Assembly: GCA_003222035.1 (NCBI GenBank)
Contig: QHUS01000049.1
Span: 1 to 64,000, forward strand
Origin: Gemmatimonadota bacterium
GTDB taxonomy: Bacteria > Gemmatimonadota > Gemmatimonadetes > Gemmatimonadales > GWC2-71-9
Length of the DNA stretch: 64,000 bases
Direction of reading: 5' to 3'
Within the stretch, counting starts at the first letter, position 1. Every line of letters begins with the position of its first letter. The notes under the pieces are model-generated. The model saw nothing but the letters and a program-made list of their open reading frames with translations. It did no database searches and was not told where the DNA came from. Both the position numbers and the translations under genes were made by a program. Of this stretch, positions 18,778 to 23,899 are shown piece after piece.

Positions 18778-19218
18778 ATGAGATGGAACAATCCGGCACT
18801 TGGCCTGCTGCTGCTGCGCGTGGTCGTGGGGTTCATTCTCCTGATGCACGGACTCGGTAAGCTCATCGGACCACCGTTCCCGGGCCCGGGCATGCAGGGG
18901 TTCATCGGCTTCCTGGGCTCGCTGCACTTCCCACTCCCGACGTTGCTTGGCTACCTGGGGATGCTGACCGAGACTCTGGGCGGGCTCGCCTTCCTGCTGG
19001 GCATCGCGCTCACGCCGGTGGGAGTGTGGACCGGCGTCTACTTCTGCATCGCACTGCTAACCGTCCACCTGTCGAACGGCTTCGACGTTTTCCACTACGG
19101 CGATCCGATGAAGCGCGGCTACGAGTATACGCTGCTGCTCATGATCGCATGCCTGAGCCTCGCCTTCACGGGCCCCGGCATGGGCGCGGTCCAGCTGAAG
19201 CCGAAGACGACCGTCTAG
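18778..19218 (+). CDS. DoxX-family membrane protein
   Basis: 146 aa with four hydrophobic segments. It has the DoxX pattern GLLLLRVVVGFILLMHGLGKL, LGMLTETLGGLAFLLG and the C-terminal GYEYTLLLMIACLSLAFTGPG. DoxX proteins are linked to thiol and oxidative stress or electron transfer in several bacteria; the role here is unknown. A GGGAGGA ribosome-binding site precedes the ATG, 13 bp after the M42 stop. Its TAG stop lies inside a CTAG that is also the stop of the convergent HEAT-repeat gene. Confidence 0.88.
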   Translation: MRWNNPALGLLLLRVVVGFILLMHGLGKLIGPPFPGPGMQGFIGFLGSLHFPLPTLLGYLGMLTETLGGLAFLLGIALTPVGVWTGVYFCIALLTVHLSNGFDVFHYGDPMKRGYEYTLLLMIACLSLAFTGPGMGAVQLKPKTTV

Positions 19219-21026
19219 CGCTTTGCCGACGGGGGAGGCCTGCGCTTCAGGTCGTCGACGGCGCGCCGGGCCTCCTCACGAACCTGGCGGTCGCCGTCGT
19301 CGGACAACCCTTCGAGAGTGCCGAGCGCGGCGGGCGTGGCGGCGAGGCGCAGCCCATCGACCGCGGCCACGCGCAGCTCGCTCGGCCGGCGCCCGAAGAT
19401 CCGGCCCGCCGGCTGCGCCCATTTGATCAGCGCCTGCACCGCGTCGGGACTCCCGATCCTGCCGAGCGCCAGCATCAACTCGCGGACCACGGCCTCCTCC
19501 TTTTCCTCCTCCATCGCGACCACGAGCGGCATCGCGAGTGCGTTCGATTTGCGCCCCCCAATCCCGAGCGCGACGTGCATCCGCACCTCGACCGACCGGT
19601 CGCGCAGCGCGCGGCGCAGCGGCTCGGCGGCGCTGCGCGTGCCGATCTTGGCGAGCGCCATTCCCACTGCCTTGCGCACCCGCTCGTCCTCGTGCTCGAG
19701 GCGCTGCGCCAGCGCCGGAACCGCGTCCTCCATCCCCAGCTCTCCGATCAACTCGGCCACGTTGCGTACGACGTACCACTCCGAGTGGTCCAGCATGTGG
19801 ACGAGCTGCTCGGTCCCCTCGGTCATGTGCTTCAACGCATCGAACACCGCGCGGCGTTCGGTCACCGTCGGCGCGGCCGCCAGGAGATCCAGCAACACCT
19901 CCACCGCCGCCGCGCCGCCCCGCTGGAGACCGGCCAGTGCCGCGGCCCGGTGCCGGGGCGTCGCGAGCAGCCGGGCCAGCCCTTCGAGCACCGGCTTCGT
20001 GTAGATGCGGCGCAGTGCGATCGCGTACTGCCGCCGGACGCCGCCCGTGTCCCCGACGGACTGCTCCACACGCATGATGCCGGTGATCACGCCGAGGACC
20101 TGCTCGTAGCGGCCTGCCTTCGCCGCCGCTTCCGCGAGACCCACGAGAGTCGCGAGGACATCTCCCACGTTCGGCGCAGCCCCGTCGCGCTGGAGCTCGG
20201 CGAGCGCTTCGGGCGCCCCCGCCGGCAGTTCCGCACCCCGCGCGGCGGGGGCGCGAGCGGTCGGAGGGCGCCTCGGGGCGGGCGCCTCCGGCGGGGGCGG
20301 AGGGACTGACGCCGATGGTCCAGCGTCGGGAGGAAGGGGCGGCTCGACCGGCGGAGTTCGCGGTGAAGGAGGCGGTGGCTCGCTCGCGGGGGTGTGTTCG
20401 CGCCGCGGGGCCCGGGATGTCGCGGGCAGCGCGTCGGCGGCCGCGGGGAGCGGCGGATCATGGGTCACCAACGGAACGCCGTCGAGCGGCACCGATTCGA
20501 TGTCGCGGAAGGCATCCCCACGGAGAATGCCCTTCGTCCCGAGGTCGCGGGATCGCCGATCGACCGGCGCATCGACTTTGGGTTTGAGGGGCGGACGCTC
20601 GATGTCGGCGGGCGAGGCCACCAGTCCCGGCGTGGCCGGGGGTGACGACCCGGCAGGCGTCACGCGTATCCGGTCGGCGCCCACGGACGCGACCCGGCTC
20701 GCGACATCCTGCGCGCCCGGCTGGTCGGCGAGCGCCTGCAGGAGGACGAACAGATGCGCGGGCTTCGGCGCGGCCGGCAGGGCGATCTCTCCGATGCCGT
20801 GGAGGTCGAGGCGTTGCACTAACGCCGCCAGCTGGTCACCCTCGCACGGCTCGCCGTTTACCTCGAGGCCCGCTCCGCCCGGAGCCACCCGCAGGGTGAC
20901 GGCCGCGTCCGGGAGCAGGGCGAGCAGCGCGCGAAAAGCCTTCTTCTGCTCGTCCTTCACACTCGGGTCGCGGAACAGGCTCACGCAGCGCGCGAACTGC
21001 GCGACGAGGGTATCTAGCGTCGGCAT
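19215..21026 (-). CDS. HEAT-repeat protein with proline-rich linker
   Basis: 603 aa, no signal peptide. Residues 1-150 form an N-terminal domain of unknown type (MPTLDTLVAQFARCVSLF...). Residues about 150-270 are a low-complexity Pro/Ala linker (PPPPSPRTPPVEPPLPP). The rest is a series of HEAT repeats, for instance LARLLATPRHRAAALAGLQR, MEDAVPALAQRLEHEDERVRKAVGMALAKIG, AAEPLRRALRDRSVEVRMHVALGIG and SPDAVQALIKWA. HEAT solenoids serve as protein-protein scaffolds. It shares its stop tetranucleotide CTAG with the convergent DoxX gene. No functional link to neighbours is evident. Confidence 0.85.
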   Translation of the reverse strand: MPTLDTLVAQFARCVSLFRDPSVKDEQKKAFRALLALLPDAAVTLRVAPGGAGLEVNGEPCEGDQLAALVQRLDLHGIGEIALPAAPKPAHLFVLLQALADQPGAQDVASRVASVGADRIRVTPAGSSPPATPGLVASPADIERPPLKPKVDAPVDRRSRDLGTKGILRGDAFRDIESVPLDGVPLVTHDPPLPAAADALPATSRAPRREHTPASEPPPPSPRTPPVEPPLPPDAGPSASVPPPPPEAPAPRRPPTARAPAARGAELPAGAPEALAELQRDGAAPNVGDVLATLVGLAEAAAKAGRYEQVLGVITGIMRVEQSVGDTGGVRRQYAIALRRIYTKPVLEGLARLLATPRHRAAALAGLQRGGAAAVEVLLDLLAAAPTVTERRAVFDALKHMTEGTEQLVHMLDHSEWYVVRNVAELIGELGMEDAVPALAQRLEHEDERVRKAVGMALAKIGTRSAAEPLRRALRDRSVEVRMHVALGIGGRKSNALAMPLVVAMEEEKEEAVVRELMLALGRIGSPDAVQALIKWAQPAGRIFGRRPSELRVAAVDGLRLAATPAALGTLEGLSDDGDRQVREEARRAVDDLKRRPPPSAKR

Positions 21027-21040
21027 GCGGGTCGGTCAAT

Positions 21041-21883
21041 TTATGGAACGGGCCTACCTGCGGCAACGCGCGCGAGGGCGCGCGCCGCATCGACCTGGCG
21101 GGTCGGGCGGCCTGGAAGGCCGAGGGCTGCCGACAAGGCAGCAACCGGCGGAAGCGCCAGTCCCAGGGACTCCAGCCGCGCCGCATCCCCGAGCAGCGCA
21201 GGGAGCGGCCCGTCGAGCATAAGGCGCCCGCTGTCGAGTACGAGCGCTCGTTCGACTGTCTCGGCGGCGAACGTCAGGTCATGCGTGATCACGAGGACGG
21301 TCACGCCCGCGACGGATCGTTCCAGCAGCGCTCGCGTGACCCGCATGCGCAGGGCGCGATCGAGCCCGGACGTCGGCTCGTCGAGGACGAGCAAGGCCGG
21401 CTCGAGCGCGAACGCGCCCGCGAGGGCGGCCAGCTTCCGGAACGCGGGCGGCAGGTCATAGGGGTGCTCCTCCGCGTGACGCTCCAACTCGAGGGCCCGG
21501 AGGGCGCGCTCCACGCGCCGAGTGGCCTCGGGGGCGGGCACGCCGGCCACACGCGGCCCGAAGCTCACGTCGTCGCGCACCGTGCGCCCGAACAGCTGCT
21601 GCTCGGCATGCTGGAACACGCAGCCGACGCGCCCGCTACGGGCGAGCGCTTCGGGGGTCCGGTGGCGCGTGTCCCAATCACCCACCCACACCGTGCCTCC
21701 GGCAGGCTGAATGAGACCCGTGATGAGCCTCATGAGCGTCGACTTGCCGGCGCCGTTCCGGCCGAGCAGGGCGACCCGCTCGCCCGGTGCGAGCGCGAGC
21801 GACACGTCTACCAATGCGCGCACCACGCCGTACGAGAATGACACCGTCTCGAGCCGCAGCGCCGGAGTCAGCGAGCCGGCCAC
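21041..21883 (-). CDS. ECF transporter ATPase A with intact Walker A but lost ABC signature
   Basis: 280 aa from GTG at 21883, chosen because it overlaps the upstream ATPase stop by 16 bp and starts just before the strand VSFSYG; the frame is open further upstream. Walker A GRNGAGKST (41-49, Lys47), Q-loop VFQHAEQQLF (Gln91), Walker B LLVLDEPTSGLD and His201 in ITHDL are all present. The position of the LSGGQ signature instead reads LPPAFRK (144-150). With the partner at 21868-22668 it forms the energising pair of an energy-coupling-factor importer. It should bind and hydrolyse ATP at its own Walker A site, using the partner's signature. Confidence 0.88.
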   Translation of the reverse strand: MAGSLTPALRLETVSFSYGVVRALVDVSLALAPGERVALLGRNGAGKSTLMRLITGLIQPAGGTVWVGDWDTRHRTPEALARSGRVGCVFQHAEQQLFGRTVRDDVSFGPRVAGVPAPEATRRVERALRALELERHAEEHPYDLPPAFRKLAALAGAFALEPALLVLDEPTSGLDRALRMRVTRALLERSVAGVTVLVITHDLTFAAETVERALVLDSGRLMLDGPLPALLGDAARLESLGLALPPVAALSAALGLPGRPTRQVDAARALARVAAGRPVP

Positions 21884-22668
21884 CGGCGCACCGCGTCCGC
21901 GACCGTGGCCGGGTACGGCGCCGCCAACCCGGCCATTCGCCACGTGTCCGCGACCGTCGTCCCCAACTCCGCGGCGCACAGGGCCTCGTCGGCGACCAGG
22001 GCTGGCGCGCCCGCGGCCGCGACGCGCCCCAGCTCCAGCCATATCACCCGGTCGGCGAATTCCGGAATGGCGTCGCTGTCACTCGTGGCGACGAGCACCC
22101 CCGCACCGCCGCGCGCCAGCTCCCGCACCAGCTGCCACAGGATCCGCGCGCCCGCGGGATCGAGCTCGGCCGTGGGCTCGTCGAGCAGCAGCAGGCCGGG
22201 ATCCATCGCCAGGATCCCGGCGATCATCACCCGCTGGAGCTCGCCACCCGAGAGCGCCGCGGGCTCGCGGGATGCGAGGTGGGCGATCCCGAGCTTCGCC
22301 AGAGCGCGGTCTACGTGGCGCGCGATCTCTTCACGCGACCACCCGAGGTTCGCGGGACCGAACGCGACCTCGTCCCACACCGTGAATGCCATGCCGGAGA
22401 CCTGGGTCCATGGAGTGGGGAGCACGATCCTCCTTCCCCCGCTTGCTTCCTCCGGTGCTTCGAAGTGAACACGACCCTCGAGCCTCCCCCCGATGACCCG
22501 CGGCGCCAGATCCGCCGCGACGAGGAGCAACGTGGAAGTGCCGGCGCCCACCGTGCCCACCAACGCCACGACCTCCCCGGCGGCGACGTCGAGCGACACG
22601 TCGCGCAGCGCCGGAGCCTTGGTCGCGGGATACCAGAACGTCACGCGGTCGAGCGTCAGCCGGACCAC
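21868..22668 (-). CDS. ECF transporter ATPase B with intact signature but degenerate Walker A and H-loop
   Basis: 266 aa from GTG at 22668, overlapping the T-subunit stop by 13 bp. The signature LSGGELQRV (139-147) and Walker B LLLLDEPTAELD are normal. The Walker A reads GTVGAGTST (38-46): Thr44 replaces the invariant lysine. The H-loop reads VATSDSD with Ser196 in place of histidine. The DNA confirms both codons (ACT and TCC/AGC-type serine context). Family membership in EcfA/CbiO is clear from VWDEVAFGPANLG. This subunit probably binds nucleotide poorly and supplies the signature face to the canonical site of the partner. Confidence 0.87.
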   Translation of the reverse strand: MVRLTLDRVTFWYPATKAPALRDVSLDVAAGEVVALVGTVGAGTSTLLLVAADLAPRVIGGRLEGRVHFEAPEEASGGRRIVLPTPWTQVSGMAFTVWDEVAFGPANLGWSREEIARHVDRALAKLGIAHLASREPAALSGGELQRVMIAGILAMDPGLLLLDEPTAELDPAGARILWQLVRELARGGAGVLVATSDSDAIPEFADRVIWLELGRVAAAGAPALVADEALCAAELGTTVADTWRMAGLAAPYPATVADAVRRWPAR

Positions 22669-23333
22669 GTGACTCTCCAGACGAGTGCCGCCGCGCACAC
22701 GGTCACGAGCCCCCAGCGACCGATGCGCTGGAGCGCGGAGTCGGGGGGCGGAGCGAGCGGCGTGCGGCGGACGCCCGGCACGAGGCCGCGCGTCTCGAGC
22801 GCGAGGGCACGCTCGTCCACCTCGTGCAAGGCCGACAGCACGAGCGGCAAGGCGAGCGCGCGCAGCGCCCGAAGACGGCTGGCCACACCGCCACGCGGAG
22901 AGAGCCCGCGGCAGCGCTGCGCATCGACGATCCGTCTGGCCCGCGCCCTCAGGAGAGGCACCGCCGACAGCGTGGCGGCGAATAGATAGGCGACACTCGC
23001 GCCCCATCCGGCGGCGACCATGGCTTCGACGAGCCGGGACGGAGCGAGCGCGGCCATGAGCCACACGAAGCTTGCGACCATGGTCGTGATCCGGAGCCCG
23101 ATTGCGACCGTGCTCGCGACGTCGTGGAGGAGGAGGAGGAACACCCAGAACGGCGCAGCGGTGACGAGCGCGGTGCGGAAGACAGGTAACCGCGGGCTTG
23201 CGCCCGGGGTCAGCGTCAGCGCGAAGGCCAATACTGCGGTGGCGAGCCCGCCCCACGGTGCCGGCAGGGTCCATGCGAGCGCCGGGAGCGCGCCGGCGAT
23301 AGCCAGGAGCGTAAACGGGTGCAGCCGCCTCAC
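22656..23333 (-). CDS. ECF transporter transmembrane T component
   Basis: 225 aa with about five hydrophobic segments. The two ARG-type coupling motifs that touch the ATPases are visible as AQRCRGLS and ALETRGLVPG near the C-terminus. The start ATG overlaps the S-component stop (ATGA at 23330-23333), and the stop overlaps ATPase B. An interior stretch, TLTPGASPRLP, is encoded by a copy of a dispersed palindromic repeat (23189-23210). The T subunit links the two ATPases to the substrate-binding S protein. All four subunits are encoded together, so this is a dedicated (group I type) importer. Confidence 0.87.
   Translation of the reverse strand: MRRLHPFTLLAIAGALPALAWTLPAPWGGLATAVLAFALTLTPGASPRLPVFRTALVTAAPFWVFLLLLHDVASTVAIGLRITTMVASFVWLMAALAPSRLVEAMVAAGWGASVAYLFAATLSAVPLLRARARRIVDAQRCRGLSPRGGVASRLRALRALALPLVLSALHEVDERALALETRGLVPGVRRTPLAPPPDSALQRIGRWGLVTVCAAALVWRVTWSG
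23189..23210. repeat. Dispersed palindromic repeat copy inside the T-component gene
   Basis: A 22-bp near-palindrome that, read on the minus strand, begins ACCCCGGGCGCAAG and ends CCCGCGGT. It is the same element as the perfect hairpin at 33284-33305, with one arm base changed, and similarity continues for about 12 bases on one side. Here it is translated as part of the T component. Confidence 0.55.
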
Positions 23334-23899
23334 GACGCGCCGATCGCGCGAAGCGCCCAGGGAAAACGGGCCGCGGTTCGCCGGGGCAGCGCGTGCAGGA
23401 CCGACGTGACCAGCGCGAACGTCACCGCCTTATCGCCGAAGTCGGACACGAAGCTGCCGAAGAAACACGCCCCCAGGGGCGACAGGCCCAGGGCCTTGCC
23501 GACCGCCGTGGCCAGGGCAATTCCGCTGGTGGTGCTGCAGCCGAACACCACATACGAGATGGGCGTCGACGTTATCGACGCGATCACTCCCAGGCCCAGG
23601 CCGGCCGGTACGGCGGTCCGCAGGCCGCGGAACAGTCCGGCCCGCGCGGCGATCCAGGCGTACAGCGCCACGATGATCTGCACCACGACGAACGGCCAGA
23701 AGGTGGGATTGCGCAGTGAGTTCACGGCCGATGTCACGACGCCGGTGGCGATTCCAACCCCCGGGCCGGCGAGCGCGGTCGCGAGGATCGTTCCGGTGGT
23801 GTCGAGAAACAGGGGCAACGCGACGGCCTCGACGGCGGCCGAGAGGGCCAGGCTGATCGCGGCCGCGACGGGAATGAGCGCGAGGAGGCGGATCGACAT
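23330..23899 (-). CDS. ECF transporter substrate-binding S component (substrate unknown)
   Basis: 189 aa from ATG at 23899; the frame is open upstream but the upstream residues are not hydrophobic or conserved-looking. It has five to six hydrophobic segments, e.g. LLALIPVAAAISLALSAAV, LDTTGTILATALAGPGVGIATGVVTSAV, PFVVVQIIVALYAWIAA and IASITSTPISYVVFG. The pattern of TTGTILATALAGPGVGI followed by a Asn-x-x-Phe-Trp segment is typical for S-component-like proteins. It does not match thiamine, biotin, riboflavin, folate or cobalt S proteins that I know. No vitamin-synthesis gene or riboswitch is nearby to suggest a substrate. It is first in the operon S, T, ATPase B, ATPase A. Confidence 0.75.
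   Translation of the reverse strand: MSIRLLALIPVAAAISLALSAAVEAVALPLFLDTTGTILATALAGPGVGIATGVVTSAVNSLRNPTFWPFVVVQIIVALYAWIAARAGLFRGLRTAVPAGLGLGVIASITSTPISYVVFGCSTTSGIALATAVGKALGLSPLGACFFGSFVSDFGDKAVTFALVTSVLHALPRRTAARFPWALRAIGAS

Follow-up and report, generated by a model that had tools for sequence, protein, structure and literature searches.

ATP sites of ABC proteins are built across two ABC chains (PMC7756269), and the operon described here raises the question of whether an ECF importer can run on only one of the two sites that such a pair can form. The operon lies in the window, the whole 64,000-nucleotide stretch of Gemmatimonadota DNA that was analysed, and it encodes two ATPases, A and B, whose departures from the consensus motifs are complementary. 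Our preferred explanation, with a probability of about 0.8, is that the operon specifies an ECF importer of the dedicated kind, driven by an obligate B-A heterodimer in which only one composite ATP site is competent.

Translation of both strands places the two ATPase genes on the minus strand; a plus-strand reading was rejected as the wrong strand. B and A are the last two genes of a four-gene ECF operon with the order S-T-B-A, in which S and T overlap by 4 bases, T and B by 13, and B and A by 16 (Table 1), and in the orthologous loci examined the S gene is likewise first and the order is kept. The adjoining S component is of the membrane type and related to NF045596, although its score lies below the curated cut-off, and 'CD3073-type' is used here as a loose label for the wider relatives matched by our S alignment (A3). 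The EcfT component matches PF02361 above its cut-off and is the sole EcfT found in the genome, which encodes about 44 ABC domain matches. Both ATPases are of the EcfA type according to tree orthology and to the fold match of B with ECF ATPases, and their best NCBIfam matches, TIGR04521 for A and TIGR04520 for B, fall under the equivalog cut-offs. The sharing of one operon by the S, T and A genes is the arrangement of Group I (dedicated) ECF transporters. Directly downstream, a HEAT-repeat homologue is found in 31 of 36 loci of family f1 and 7 of 7 of family f2, and in none of family f3; it is probably an operon neighbor that stands outside the transporter proper.

Table 1. Position of the ECF operon, its ATPase motifs and its downstream neighbor in the window, and of a related operon in E. 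coli
Feature	Position	Strand	Remarks
S component gene	23330..23899	-	NF045596 (CD3073 family) 81.6 bits, below curated cut-off of 180
EcfT transmembrane gene	22656..23333	-	PF02361 (CbiQ) 45.2 bits, cut-off 25
ATPase B gene, EcfA1 (EcfA) orthologue	21868..22668	-	266 aa; PF00005 73.5 bits
B Walker A GTVGAGTST, Thr44 for Lys	22531..22557	-	Lys absent in 43/43 of f1 and f3
B Q-loop position, Pro84 for Gln (VLP vs VFQ)	22417..22419	-	From alignment; Gln absent in 50/50 orthologues
B signature LSGGE, residues 139-143, intact, completes site 1	22240..22254	-	SGG in 49/50 orthologues
B Walker B Asp163-Glu164, LDEP, Glu retained	22177..22182	-	Motif reading
B H-loop position, Ser196 for His (TSD)	22081..22083	-	His absent in 50/50 orthologues
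ATPase A gene, EcfA2 (EcfA') orthologue	21041..21883	-	280 aa; PF00005 91.7 bits
A Walker A GRNGAGKST, Lys47 (site 1)	21737..21763	-	Lys in 50/50 orthologues
A signature position LPPAFRK, residues 144-150 (site 2)	21434..21454	-	Replaces LSGGQ
A catalytic Glu169, LDEP (site 1)	21377..21379	-	49/49 complete orthologues
A H-loop His201, THD (site 1)	21281..21283	-	49/49 complete orthologues
HEAT-repeat protein gene	19215..21026	-	PF13646 90 bits; starts 14 bases past A
E. coli SCU-109 operon	L200:7559-10635		Between epd and yggC; with PPC-domain gene

The original prediction described ATPase A as intact in its Walker A lysine and H-loop histidine with LPPAFRK at the position of LSGGQ, and the translation agrees in each respect; the Q-loop of A is also normal (VFQH). 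Its description of ATPase B, with a complete LSGGELQ and Walker B but with Thr for the Walker A lysine and Ser for the H-loop histidine, is likewise accurate as far as it goes, although it missed the loss of the Q-loop glutamine. The window pair has the makeup of a degenerate-site ABC protein, with one consensus composite site and another that is altered in signature, Walker A and H-loop. Loss of the catalytic glutamate, which is common but not universal in degenerate sites, is not seen in the window, as Glu164 of B is present. By sequence, the pair does not have the two competent ATP sites usual for ECF members studied to date, a feature that describes those members and is not a formal criterion for an ECF transporter.

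A search of the order to which the window belongs covered 288 genomes and recovered a B orthologue in 50; a 51st genome, G154, is excluded from this count; its match was weaker, its motifs differ and no partner ATPase was paired with it. In the orthologous operons the Lys, Gln, Glu and His of A are present in all 49 complete copies, and SGG is present in none of them. The signature of B reads SGG in 49 of 50 operons and SSG in the other, and its His and Q-loop Gln are missing throughout. The Walker A lysine of B is absent from all 43 members of families f1 and f3, where it is replaced by Thr (18), Ala (15), Cys (9) or Ser (1), and is present in all seven members of f2, for which reason f2, judged by its motif states, is a natural intermediate. 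The catalytic glutamate of B is kept in 35 of the 43 f1 and f3 members. It is Asp in 7/7 of f3, as would follow from an idle site 2, and a single f1 genome has Asn. B and A are fused in a single open frame in 15 of the 50 operons, and dN/dS between close pairs ranges from 0.16 to 0.31 for B and from 0.16 to 0.31 for A, indicating similar purifying selection on both genes. Read from these alignments, the protected residues are those of a single composite site, formed by the Walker A, Q-loop, Glu and His of A and the signature of B.

These counts bear on most of what had been predicted. The site formed by the Walker A of A and the signature of B was proposed to be canonical, and its residues are indeed invariant but for the one SSG; the opposite site was proposed to be dead on both faces, and it is degenerate on both, which suggests that it is catalytically dead as well. 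The natural fusions and the constant gene order support the claim of an obligate asymmetric pair. The original prediction proposed a search of homologous operons for the same two substitutions; all 50 operons are asymmetric, with the lysine of B lost in 43, and operons with intact motifs were not encountered among them.

Beyond the order, the S-component alignment was used to fetch operons from Actinomycetota, Bacillota and Chloroflexota by their S match alone, a test that is not conditioned on ATPase motifs. Together with enterobacterial and other named operons these gave 42 family pairs, in every one of which the A signature is lost and SGG is present in B, with the Lys, Gln, Glu and His of A intact wherever readable. 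Named genomes supplied 26 ECF pairs outside the family for comparison; none shows this asymmetry, and all have the second signature glycine in A and the Walker A lysine in B. On these motif counts, the lopsided ATP-site design characterizes an entire ECF family, defined by its S component, that spans several phyla and includes enterobacteria. Set apart from the 42 pairs is L283, in which an S relative stands beside a canonical EcfA1-A2 module, and L291, whose motifs match the asymmetric pattern with a different gene order, is also outside the tally; in several Bacillota loci the S gene stands without ATPases beside it.

The extent of decay differs among family members. In many from Chloroflexota and Bacillota site 2 deviates only by the missing A signature, and such sites could retain slow hydrolysis. 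A half-state, with the A signature and B histidine lost and the B lysine kept, is found in Klebsiella, Citrobacter and one actinobacterium, and the A signature and B histidine are also lost in the actinobacterial locus L244, whose S component passes the NF045596 cut-off of 180 with 197.6 bits. A DNA search for homologues of the Klebsiella operon found one, at 60-80% identity, in about 61% of complete E. coli genomes (3302 of 5426). In the one E. coli copy read fully, B has GDNGSGKST and LSGGE and no His, and A has DLHSAQRR with its Lys, Gln, Glu and His intact; the E. coli S homologue matches PF12822 above the cut-off. The operon is absent from E. coli MG1655 and BL21(DE3), which may be a reason why the family has been overlooked.

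Some other loci deserve mention in their own right. A high-GC contig, L243 (L073; contig00038 of a record named 'Vibrio cholerae 35D'), carries a family operon and looks like contamination from an actinobacterium-like genome; its pair is counted among the 42, and nothing is claimed about Vibrio. Three CRISPR-DR28-like repeats lie between ecfT and the first ATPase gene of a Chloroflexota family operon (L266:3572-3731). Outside the family, ECF pairs from Collinsella and Chloroflexi (L209 and L214) show single deviations, either Gln in the H-loop of the first ATPase with LSRGQ in the second, or Asn in the H-loop of the second.

The order in which site 2 was lost was read from a tree of concatenated pairs with the motif columns removed, a quick tree in which long-branch joins are uncertain. 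The motif states require two changes on this tree for the B lysine, seven for the B histidine, and two for the A signature, and the decay of site 2 is both nested and repeated, with the B histidine lost at least seven times and the B lysine at least twice. One loss of the lysine is shared by f1 and f3, which fall in one starred clade, and the other is a change to Arg in L278. This second, independent loss is in a Chloroflexota locus (L278:3084-4709) that also has Ala in the H-loop of B. The decay looks stepwise, and its usual order, as traced on this tree, appears to be A signature, then B histidine, then B lysine; on the same evidence, loss of the lysine is the derived extreme of a graded series. 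Alignment of both proteins with EcfA1 and EcfA2 was part of the original prediction's plan. Distance to the nearest canonical ATPase gave no resolution on the orthology of A and B, and a mixture-model tree was used in its place, in which one change is enough to set every first ATPase (EcfA1 and B) apart from every second one (EcfA2 and A). B is thus an orthologue of EcfA1 and A of EcfA2, so that the surviving site combines the Walker A of EcfA2 with the signature of EcfA1.

The AlphaFold2 model of B (mean pLDDT 86, pTM 0.82) has a normal ATPase fold that matches ECF ATPases. For a natural B-A fusion the predicted structure has two domains (pLDDT 88, pTM 0.84) and, among PDB entries matched over the whole length, is closest to the ATP-bound ATPase of DppABCD (TM 0.71/0.79); it is plausible from this model that the fusion forms a dimer. 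In the proposed motor, site 1 would consist of the Walker A, Q-loop, catalytic Glu and H-loop of A (EcfA') facing the LSGGE of B (EcfA), and it would be the only site able to hydrolyse ATP. Site 2, which lacks the signature of A and the Lys, Gln and His of B, would not hydrolyse ATP and may be empty or passively hold ATP or ADP. Neither an A-A nor a B-B dimer would be able to build a competent site, and under the composite-site rule only the heterodimer therefore has one, and only one. By analogy with ECF-FolT2, ATP bound at the single site would close the dimer, bend the coupling helices of EcfT and expel the S component, and hydrolysis of that one ATP would open the module again, ready to take up another loaded S component. 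We infer one-site catalysis, the transport cycle and the ATP stoichiometry alike.

Three rival explanations were weighed against such a motor. Substitutions at catalytic positions are unusual, and they might reflect pseudogene decay or a sequencing error in the window genome, but this is refuted by 50 genomes in matching states, by open frames, and by a dN/dS of about 0.2 in both genes; the conserved motif states, the selection and the fusions together therefore rule out error and dead-gene decay, and the chance that we leave to them is practically nil. A or B could instead partner another ATPase, so that B-A is not the motor, and the many ABC domains of the genome offer candidates. The original prediction had also raised a partner encoded elsewhere, a suggestion that finds no support in a genome with a single EcfT, and as B and A are always adjacent and in some genomes naturally fused, we regard it as very improbable. 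Slightly less improbable, though still a slim prospect, is that LPxxxRK serves as an alternative signature and lets site 2 work by a new chemistry. The Arg/Lys that follows is mostly retained, as in LSGGQ(R/K), but the triplet in place of SGG is not conserved across the family (SPT, GLA, PYS, PPA, HSA, APQ and PLP all occur), which points to decay and not to replacement, and the Walker A of B that faces it decays too.

Two further possibilities are sub-variants of the one-site explanation, and they differ in what site 2 does. Both sites might bind ATP while only site 1 hydrolyses it, with site 2 in an allosteric or structural role, as in Pdr5, CFTR or TAP, and closure requiring two ATP. Pdr5 keeps ATP in its degenerate site although the Walker A Lys is missing there (PMC8421411), a 2EQ ECF transporter closes with ATP at both sites (PMC10368641), and in B most glycines of the P-loop persist, as does the Glu in the majority of genomes; however, f1 and f3 lack the Lys, Gln, His and signature of site 2, and f3 lacks the Glu as well, leaving few contacts for a nucleotide, and our credence in this variant is a little under one half. 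An equal share goes to B serving solely as a scaffold or regulator, a signature donor and docking partner for EcfT, with site 2 never nucleotide-bound. Every B nucleotide contact tested in f1 and f3 except the Glu is degenerate while signature and fold are kept, as a scaffold would predict, but the persistence of that Glu in most of these proteins and of much of the Walker A Gly/Ser pattern speaks against it, and sequence cannot separate the two variants.

The single competent site, whichever variant holds, can be set against what is known of a two-site ECF module. In the L. delbrueckii module, the one ECF importer in which both sites have been tested, Glu to Gln replacement in either ATPase abolishes both ATPase activity and transport (PMC10368641), and since both glutamates are needed there, the asymmetric family would have to work differently. 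Under ATP, ECF-FolT2 was found with ADP in EcfA' and with ATP remaining in EcfA, and the order of binding and hydrolysis at the two ECF sites was called open by the authors (PMC10368641). Gene order and chain lengths suggest that EcfA' of ECF-FolT2 is EcfA2; as A is orthologous to EcfA2, the surviving site would be the EcfA' site, in which ECF-FolT2 held ADP.

The substrate of the family is probably a nucleoside, because genes of nucleoside metabolism adjoin its operons, and we have less confidence in this for the window's own lineage. Of the 37 family operons from three phyla that include an ATPase pair, 24 have a nucleoside-related gene nearby, and the neighbors in these 37 include a nucleoside hydrolase (16), a nucleoside phosphorylase (9) and a PfkB kinase (10), with identities confirmed by Pfam in six examples. 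Loci with neighbors of one or more of these kinds include L265, L248, L262, L245, L251 and L281. Among the ECF loci of named genomes the sole one with a nucleoside-gene neighbor is L243, itself a family member, and the window's order has no such neighbor in any of its 50 loci. The window and 14 relatives yielded no riboswitch. In 54 further loci there were two, for FMN at L255, where the S gene has no ATPases beside it, and for fluoride at L258, and no pattern across them indicates a substrate.

The nearest known systems are the Group II ECF transporters (EcfA1-EcfA2-EcfT with an S component), such as ECF-FolT2 and ECF-CbrT of L. delbrueckii, which resemble the window module in subunit plan, A1-A2 order and orthology. 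Unlike these, which need both catalytic glutamates (PMC10368641), the window module has one degenerate site and is dedicated to a single S component. NF045596, the 'CD3073 family putative ECF transporter S component', describes a related S component, and the model is silent on ATPases. Pdr5, ABCG5/G8, TAP, CFTR and TM287/288 likewise have one consensus and one degenerate site, with the losses split over chains or halves, but they are exporters or a channel with other membrane parts, whereas the window encodes an importer. Degenerate-site exporters often lose the catalytic Glu, whereas the window's family mostly keeps the Glu and loses the Lys; in the degenerate site of Pdr5 the Walker A Lys is replaced by Cys, the Glu by Asn and the His by Tyr, and there is no signature (PMC7756269). 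The fused ATPases RbsA and NupO are closer in that they belong to importers and have one degenerate site without the Walker A Lys (PMC11466899), although these are solute-binding-protein-dependent Type II importers and not ECF transporters, which were left out of that study. We found no description of an ECF transporter with a degenerate ATP site in the open-access papers searched, which makes this a weak negative. Degenerate sites are thus familiar in exporters and in importers of the RbsA/NupO type, and for ECF transporters they are apparently new.

In its broadest form our reading would be of a widespread ECF family, probably of nucleoside importers, that runs on the single EcfA2/EcfA' site with one ATP per cycle, and in which site 2 was silenced stepwise until, in the window's lineage, it had no ATP-site function; we advance this form tentatively, at rather less than even odds. 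An ECF family in which one defined site is naturally off, and in which intermediate stages survive, makes the question of the order of the ATP sites directly testable.
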